From positions 3,633,307 to 3,697,306 of the forward strand of contig NZ_KK073875.1 in NCBI RefSeq assembly GCF_000585395.1: a stretch of 64,000 nucleotides of DNA, given 5' to 3'. Shown piece after piece: positions 26,161 through 53,257 of this stretch; within the stretch, counting starts at the first letter, position 1, and each line of letters opens with the position of its first letter. The notes under the pieces were generated by a model that saw only the letters and a program-made list of their open reading frames with translations, was not told the DNA's origin and did no database searches. The DNA is from Saccharibacillus sacchari DSM 19268. Its GTDB lineage: Bacteria > Bacillota > Bacilli > Paenibacillales > Paenibacillaceae. The position numbers and the translations under genes were made by a program.

Positions 26161-26395
26161 AAACGCCCTTAAACAGGGCGTCGACGTGTCGAGAAAGTCC
26201 AGTGTGCCTGGAAGCGAGAAGACGGAGAGAGAAATTCAGTGAAAAACGCCTTTGAACTCGGAAAATTCCTTATTTAAATCTAATTCAACTTTCCGAGTGA
26301 GACAGCGTTTTGAACGAATTTCTCTCGCAGTCTTCTCGCTTCCCGCGCTAACGTAACTTTCTCGACAACCTGACGCCCTTGACAGGGCGTTTTTT
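26161..26395. repeat. large palindromic intergenic element, copy A
   Basis: Nested perfect arms include GTCGAGAAAGT (26188) with ACTTTCTCGAC (26356), GGAAGCGAGAAGAC (26210) with GTCTTCTCGCTTCC (26330), GAGAGAAATTC (26227) with GAATTTCTCTC (26316), AAAACGC (26243) with GCGTTTT (26305), and ACTCGGAAA (26256) with TTTCCGAGT (26290). CTTTGAA and TGAGACA form an unpaired internal loop shared with copies B and C. Each end carries its own CGCCCT-N-AGGGCG hairpin with a T6 tract pointing outward, so it also terminates both convergent flanking genes. It fills the gap between the histidine kinase and the LysR gene. Confidence 0.8.
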
Positions 26396-34453: not shown

Positions 34454-34742
34454 GTAGCCTGCCTTTCGCCAGAAAGACAGGCTCGACGTTTCGAGAAAGT
34501 CCAACGTAGCTGGAAGCGAGAAGACGGAGAGAGAAATTCAGTTCAAGACGCCTTTGAACTCGGAAAAATCCTTAGTTAAATCCAATCCATTTTCCGAGTG
34601 AGACAGCGTCTTGTGAAGCATTTCGAAGAAATGCACTTCGGAAGCCTATGCTGGCAATTTCTCTCGCAGTCTTCTCGCTTCCCCCCGCCAAAGTAACTTT
34701 CTCGAAAACCTAAGCCTGTCTTTCAAAAGAAGACAGGCTTTT
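34454..34742. repeat. large palindromic intergenic element, copy B
   Basis: The nested arms are TTCGAGAAAGT (34490) with ACTTTCTCGAA (34696), GGAAGCGAGAAGAC (34512) with GTCTTCTCGCTTCC (34669), AAGACGC (34545) with GCGTCTT (34606), and ACTCGGAAAA (34558) with TTTTCCGAGT (34590). CTTTGAA and TGAGACA are conserved as in copy A. The 3' half holds about 40 extra bases with a small GCATTTC/GAAATGC hairpin. The ends carry two related hairpins, AGCCTGCCTTTC and AAGCCTGTCTTTC types, the second followed by TTTT. It fills most of the 350-base gap between GH35 and the AraC gene. Confidence 0.8.
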
Positions 34743-53118: not shown

Positions 53119-53257
53119 GAGCGTGCCAAGCGGAGGGAGAAATTCAGTGAAAGGCGCCTTTGAACCCGGGATTTGCCGTTTGAATGTATATTCAAATGGC
53201 AAATCCCGGGTGAGACAGCGCCTTGAAGGAATTTCTCCCGCAGCGCCCACCACGCTC
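53119..53257. repeat. large palindromic intergenic element, copy C
   Basis: The arms are GAGCGTG with CACGCTC (outer), GGGAGAAATTC (53135) with GAATTTCTCCC (53229), AAGGCGC (53151) with GCGCCTT (53218), CCCGGGATTTGCC (53165) with GGCAAATCCCGGG (53198), and TTTGAA with TTCAAA at the tip. The CTTTGAA and TGAGACA internal loop is the same as in copies A and B. The outer GAAGCGAGAAGAC arm of those copies is missing. It ends just before the promoter of the LTA synthase gene. Confidence 0.8.

Follow-up and report, generated by a model that had tools for sequence, protein, structure and literature searches.

Three intergenic sites in the 64,000-nucleotide stretch of the Saccharibacillus sacchari DSM 19268 genome analysed here (the window) carry long hairpins, with folding z-scores against shuffled sequence of -14.6, -10.6 and -12.0 for copies A, B and C, respectively (Table 1). 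Copy A lies between convergent genes for a histidine kinase and a LysR regulator, copy B between those for a family-35 glycosidase and an AraC regulator, and copy C between those for a metallophosphoesterase and a sulfatase. A preliminary description of this DNA had proposed that the three sites share one architecture, and indeed all of them carry one structured core of about 110 nt. The alignment common to the three spans GAGAAATTC..CGCCTTTGAA..GTGAGACAGCG..GAATTTCTC, that is, two arms and two loops, and GTGAGACAGCG is found in the window once at each site and nowhere else. Read from its foot, the core consists of an outer stem ending GAGAAATTC/GAATTTCTC, a second stem, a set of mismatch steps and a distal stem whose tip varies; the variant of the outer stem that had been ascribed to copy B appears in the alignment as CAATTTCTC. 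The CTTTGAA/TGAGACA region is conserved between the aligned sites as had been claimed, but conserved U-A and U-G pairs with two mismatch steps around them, first CU/CA and then tandem GA/GA, describe it better than the asymmetric internal loop of the earlier account. Two further features go beyond that description. A second conserved loop (3x3, GGA/GCA) is found at the foot of the core, and copies A and B have the same terminator hairpin on both flanks. At copy A this direct repeat scores 14 compared to a null 99th percentile of 12, and its fold has an energy of -10.6 kcal/mol. The ends of both elements are inverted repeats, TGTCGAGAAAGTC/GACTTTCTCGACA, which in copy B read TTTCGAG/CTCGAAA. 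Copy C has no such ends and does not share terminal repeats with an insertion sequence (IS) in the way that a MITE would. Several cores also contain an extra small hairpin (GAAGCATTTCGAAGAAATGCACTTCGG) in their 3' arm (window ~34614-34655, the S. sacchari copy L012 and sites B and C of the S. endophyticus genome G015), as if the element were itself an insertion target.

Table 1. Elements of the family in the window and the parts recognised in them
Feature	Position	Strand	Remarks
Copy A, site	26161-26395		
Copy A, left terminator stem-loop (ACGCCCTTAAACAGGGCGT), A-tract before it	26163-26181		direct repeat of 26373-26390
Copy A, element, inverted repeat to inverted repeat, 181 bp	26187-26367	+	ends match IS1182-family IS ends
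Copy A, core	26222-26331	+	model R1, 122.8 bits; among the 29 model-building sequences
Copy A, right terminator stem-loop, then TTTTTT (26390-26395)	26373-26390		
Copy B, site	34454-34742		
Copy B, left terminator stem-loop	34456-34483		element lacking here in seven of eight relatives with both flanks
Copy B, element, inverted repeat to inverted repeat, 219 bp	34489-34707	+	extra hairpin in 3' side of core
Copy B, core as matched by the model	34524-34629	+	model R1, 65.1 bits; outside the model-building set
Copy B, right terminator stem-loop, then TTT	34713-34739		
Copy C, outer stem GAGCGTG/CACGCTC	53119-53257	+	without recognisable transposon ends
Copy C, core	53130-53244	+	model R1, 109.4 bits; among the 29 model-building sequences

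A structure of 36 pairs fits 29 close copies from the S. sacchari genome, and compensatory change, for which the preliminary description had proposed tests, is abundant in it. These 29 come from 32 trimmed cores, themselves taken from 39 that were found; the other seven of the 39 were skipped because of inserts, unusual ends or the lack of a structure. Change on both sides of a pair is seen in 20 of the 36 pairs (52 cells), compared to averages of 6.3 pairs and 10.9 cells in shuffled alignments, and none of 500 shuffles reached either observed value. Further pair types, one of five covariation measures, gave a value that was reached by 39 of the 500 shuffles. The signal was strongly weakened when the pairing partners were slid. 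In a diverged set of 33 copies (model R2), 33 of the 36 pairs change on both sides, in 264 cells.

The family proved to be both abundant and widespread. According to the preliminary description, its proposal would be refuted by a lack of further copies in related genomes or of compensatory changes in the stems, and neither of these outcomes was seen. At least 150 copies are present in the S. sacchari genome, where model R1 matches all 150 of the candidates scored, far above chance. BLAST with copy C gave at least 48 genome matches (40 of 322 candidates were scored), of which a few represent the opposite strand of one place. Across 39 genomes, S. sacchari included, R1 matched all 16 members of the genus, one of eight other members of the family and none of 15 from elsewhere in the order. 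Many copies were also found in Paenibacillus radicibacter, among the matches listed by a pattern scan; three further matches of that scan (L096, L112 and L141) were set aside as chance, since the structure does not form in them. The second model, R2, matched 114 of the 148 Paenibacillaceae genomes that were sampled, in 14 of 19 genera, with 1 to 25 matches per matching genome and at most 25 candidates scored in each. In a class-wide draw of 91 genomes, the seven that matched were all of the members of this family drawn, and R2 had no match in the 84 Bacilli genomes from outside it. With 0.59 bits per position the information content of R2 is low, and its E-values are only approximate; whenever more than 40 genomes were searched with it the filters were stricter, so that weak matches are lost. 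In ten other genera, 30 loci from 15 genomes share the loop signature CCTTTG on the 5' side and CAACAGC on the 3' side, or close variants of it. Their stem sequences differ, and most have, as judged by eye, an extra small side hairpin that turns the core into a three-way junction. Since the loop signature is constant while the stems vary, the model is not merely gathering long hairpins. The supposition that the family was undescribed holds as far as Rfam 15 and open-access full texts are concerned. Among the entries listed by searches of such texts none described it, Rfam 15 gave no match in the window at gathering threshold, and its sole match among 20 loci from other genera was a PyrR site outside the element. 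A relaxed Rfam scan of copy A returned microRNA hairpin models only, far below their thresholds.

Copies A and B are MITE-like elements with terminal repeats of the IS1182-family type, sited in intrinsic terminators whose stem-loop is duplicated around them. Of 109 classified copies in the S. sacchari genome, 20 have both terminal repeats, 27 have one and 62 have none, and A and B thus represent only part of the family. A search for the ends fetched 40 places and yielded 25 paired ends. Over all S. sacchari loci, 32 core-bearing pairings of terminal inverted repeats were tested, some being alternative pairings of one place. Flanking direct repeats reach or exceed the 99th percentile of randomly paired flanks in 18 of the 32, and in 17 of these 18 both repeats fold as hairpins; the remaining 14 pairings show no duplication at that level. 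The eight nucleotides outside the left repeat contain on average 5.1 A and those outside the right repeat 5.5 T, while the stretches of up to 7 nt that face the element average 0.5 T and 0.8 A. We tentatively read the copies without ends (the type of copy C) and the pairings without duplication as older, decayed or wrongly paired. In the other genera, inverted repeats formed by the outer arms reach or exceed the 95th percentile of the null in 19 of 34 cases (5 of 12 in P. radicibacter) and direct repeats do so in 10 of 34 (0 of 12 in P. radicibacter), and the ends differ. Given these weak direct repeats and differing ends, terminator duplication by the element and its connection with IS1182 are established for Saccharibacillus only.

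A candidate autonomous partner is present in the same genome. Two of the five PF13751 matches in S. sacchari are near-identical IS copies of 1.57 kb with the ends TCAGGCTGTCGAGAAACTC..TTTCTCGACATTCTGA, and both lie between two copies of a stem-loop (19 and 18 bp). Their transposase belongs to the IS1182 family (NF033551, E 1.5e-86, 291 bits against a cut-off of 270, from the C-terminal frame alone). Four like IS in genome G101, whose ends were fixed by mutual alignment, are flanked by duplications, each of which coincides exactly with a perfect stem-loop (25, 26, 18 and 34 bp), and one in G003 has a stem-loop duplication of 29 bp. The stem-loop is therefore duplicated at seven of the eight examined IS copies of this type, with a length that follows the target hairpin; the eighth (L279, in G002) is flanked by two different hairpins. 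A second IS1182 type in G101 (L319, L326, L329 and L331) lacks a duplicated hairpin at the ends given by alignment, and so stem-loop duplication is not a habit of the whole IS family. This analysis of IS ends leaves out other PF13751 loci, including L276-L278 of S. sacchari and the copies in G079. The elements share with this IS both their terminal repeats (TGTCGAGAAAGTC ends compared to TCAGGCTGTCGAGAAACTC/TTTCTCGACATTCTGA) and their target preference, seen in 18 of the 32 pairings and seven of the eight IS copies. The IS does not contain the core: both IS places lie outside the R1 core matches, and by eye the core is not in the IS ends. Matches to PF13751 are lacking in six of nine other Saccharibacillus genomes and in five of 12 genomes of other genera, all of which contain copies of the element, showing that the transposase is not present everywhere that the repeat occurs. 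In S. sacchari, G002 and G003 alike, the transposase is split over two overlapping frames with the same layout (L274, nt 515-1890; L279; L280), an arrangement more suggestive of programmed frameshifting than of decay.

Comparison with relatives shows sites both with and without the element. Both flanks of site B were found in eight relatives, and seven of these lack the element, several of them showing one simple terminator; S. endophyticus (G015) is the only one of the eight that has it. Two further sites, 3439753 and 3783137, are empty in G015 at a single hairpin where S. sacchari has two hairpins and the element, and a third site empty in G015, 4325478, shows an insertion that has neither end repeats nor a duplicated terminator. 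Of 43 S. sacchari sites compared with G015, 31 could be mapped, 11 could not and one had no locus of its own, and at 23 of the 31 the distance from flank to flank is within 50 bp of that in S. sacchari, the element itself having been read in G015 at sites A, B and C and the other sites judged by flank distance. The remaining eight mapped sites include the three empty ones (one counted twice via a neighbouring copy), one partial deletion, one rearranged site, one doubtful mapping of low identity and one that is longer in G015. At site A the element is present in G015, and in G003 it is found with another core and in the opposite orientation. The cores at sites A and B in S. endophyticus are of a different subtype within the same surrounding terminator, which suggests replacement between copies. 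Two elements of opposite orientation lie between purF and purM (L025, 1509-1617 on the minus strand and 1994-2061 on the plus strand; the identity of these genes was checked in S. sacchari only), and the purF-adjacent element has counterparts with compensatory changes and similar flanks in three other species (L060, L064 and L065). Nine viral contigs (L341-L349) carry one element each, in a like place; on eight of the nine it lies on the same strand as a nearby small holin-like frame, mostly beside a like upstream frame. Some copies thus seem to have been kept in place for long times.

We interpret the family as high-copy interspersed structured repeats, a part of which, in S. sacchari, carries IS1182-type ends and would be mobilised in trans by an IS1182 transposase, a reading to which we give a probability of roughly 0.75. 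The preliminary description had left the choice between a structured RNA and a mobile repeat, and the second half of it now finds support in the IS1182-family ends, the duplicated terminator hairpins and the empty sites in relatives. In the mechanism that we propose, the IS1182 transposase would move the MITE-like elements in trans and would take a stem-loop as its target, the element being joined to each of the two strands at the 5' foot of the stem; repair would then leave the whole stem-loop duplicated. As the A-tract stays beyond the left copy and the T-tract beyond the right one, each side can retain an outward terminator. Insertion would then cost the host little, with a transcript end that is probably some 200 nt longer. 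The core may be recognised as a folded strand, either RNA or ssDNA, by a host or transposition factor, and might be conserved for that reason.

As kinds of element, interspersed structured repeats and MITEs are already familiar; what is new here is the family itself, its breadth, its core, the IS1182-type ends and the exact duplication of a terminator stem-loop. Bacterial MITEs are short and non-autonomous and have IS-derived ends, and in these respects the present elements are like them. The bcr1-type repeats of the Bacillus cereus group, to which the elements can be likened by description only, are high-copy, intergenic, RNA-like and mobile, and their target duplications are short and of fixed length. 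What sets our elements apart from bacterial MITEs such as MITEAba12 (PMC6382973) is their interior, which is no IS remnant and instead has a conserved structure whose covariation extends over a bacterial family, and the variable length of the duplicated stem-loop. The likeness to REP/BIME repeats and their RAYT partners (PMC3733652, PMC2817692) lies in the intergenic palindromes and the more than 100 copies per genome, but REPs measure 20-40 bp, whereas the elements here measure 110-220 bp with a core of about 110 nt. They also differ from REP/RAYT in their hairpin or three-way-junction core and, in S. sacchari, in having DDE-type IS ends. A further parallel concerns IS1272 of staphylococci, with which they share the transposase family, stem-loops as targets and insertion downstream of genes, according to the parts of PMC5678879 that deal with it. 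There, IS1272 is described as replacing its target stem-loop without duplicating it. In the present case a complete copy of the stem-loop stands on each side, which does not correspond to replacement of the IS1272 type, and the elements are non-autonomous with a conserved structured core. Duplication is drawn as a possibility in the hypothetical pathway b of Figure 13 of that paper (Wan et al., PMC5678879), those parts of which contain no example of it, and the duplications reported here look like the outcome of this pathway. They provide clean genomic evidence that one group of IS1182-type transposons duplicates its entire stem-loop target, and suggest a route by which terminators can survive invasion by a mobile element. 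A large repeat class that is absent from Rfam 15 is thereby added to a widespread bacterial family and, as the core is conserved while the ends change, the question of what recognises the core is directly testable.

A more far-reaching reading, which we offer only tentatively, is that a family-wide folded RNA module spreads on transposons which read and copy terminators, is selected at the RNA level and has in places been domesticated. If true, a single structured RNA domain, whose core is a hairpin or a three-way junction and whose copy number lay between a few and at least 150 per genome when a limited number of candidates was scored, would be added at the 3' ends of numerous unrelated transcripts with termination preserved. 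The strand evidence that bears on this also bears on another possibility, namely that the core itself is the mobile unit, moving as a folded single strand (an RNA intermediate or ssDNA) recognised by some enzyme in the manner of attC or REP/RAYT, and that the IS1182-type ends were gained in Saccharibacillus only. Among diverged copies, G-U mismatches outnumber A-C mismatches by 75 to 27 (20 of the 75 G-U coming from one conserved U-G pair), and in a wider set by 95 to 30 overall and by 49 to 9 at strong pairs, in alignments that were fitted to a model of the plus strand, the strand with the G-U excess. Folding without an alignment favours the plus strand in diverged copies (40 compared to 23, p 0.004) and the minus strand in S. 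sacchari copies (32 plus compared to 56 minus, p 0.014). These strand tests are mixed, and we therefore do not claim selection at the RNA level. Mobility of the core would fit the G-U excess in diverged copies, the strand-specificity of the conserved non-Watson-Crick loops, the presence of the core in 14 of 19 genera while the outer arms and ends differ between them, and the several copy-bearing genomes without a PF13751 match. Against it stand the absence of any such excess in 89 young S. sacchari copies (32 G-U, 31 A-C), the IS-type ends and target duplications in Saccharibacillus and the fact that a partner gene was not identified, and we consider it unlikely.

The location of the copies raises the further possibility that they are domesticated 3'-UTR or terminator elements, kept for stabilising transcripts or for termination. 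The 109 classified S. sacchari copies comprise 34 between convergent and four between divergent gene pairs, and, between genes of the same direction, 38 in sense and 33 in antisense. None of 112 unique copies lies inside a predicted gene, and three are at locus edges; these 112 derive from the best 150 of 223 matches in the fetched loci, which were picked by score, end repeats or region and are a non-random sample, and the genes were called with a simple hexamer model rather than taken from annotation. The corresponding figures are 5 convergent, 2 divergent, 11 sense, 4 antisense and 1 edge in P. radicibacter, and 8 convergent, 2 divergent, 14 sense, 9 antisense, 2 edge and 1 inside a predicted gene in the other genera. 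The preference for 3' ends of genes is thus strong, S. sacchari copies show no preference for sense, and the small samples from outside lean towards it. Domestication would account for the 3' location, for this lean among same-direction copies (11:4 and 14:9), for the 23 of 31 mapped sites with a conserved flank distance in G015, and for the purF-purM elements with compensatory changes in several species and the like placement on nine viral contigs. On the other hand, terminator targeting already explains the location, the S. sacchari copies are without orientation preference, and presence or absence varies between species, all of which make this a doubtful account of the family. The near-equal numbers of sense and antisense copies at the 3' ends of genes also count against an ordinary cis-regulatory RNA. 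A riboswitch or attenuator class would share the conserved structure and loops with their covariation, but at least 150 copies, in both orientations, at 3' rather than 5' ends and without an Rfam match render such a class highly improbable. That the matches are generic long hairpins caught by a permissive model is scarcely credible in spite of the low information content and rough E-values of R2 and the palindrome-like scoring by R1 of the opposite strand of many S. sacchari copies, given that one draw returned 0 of 84 genomes from outside the family and 7 of 7 from within it, and that 30 loci of other genera have the loop signature.

Several elements are found close to one another. On G000:C1 of S. 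sacchari, four pairs near 1196133/1196366, 2381309/2381525, 3348597/3348802 and 4325478/4325711 are spaced by about 205-235 bp, each with a minus-strand element followed by a plus-strand one so that their 5' sides face each other. Two adjoining same-strand model matches at G000:C1:5669607-5669819 represent a tandem or nested copy. Finally, three tandem elements of the same orientation are spaced at about 260 bp in another genome (L287, 976-1612; G056:C43:254777-255413).
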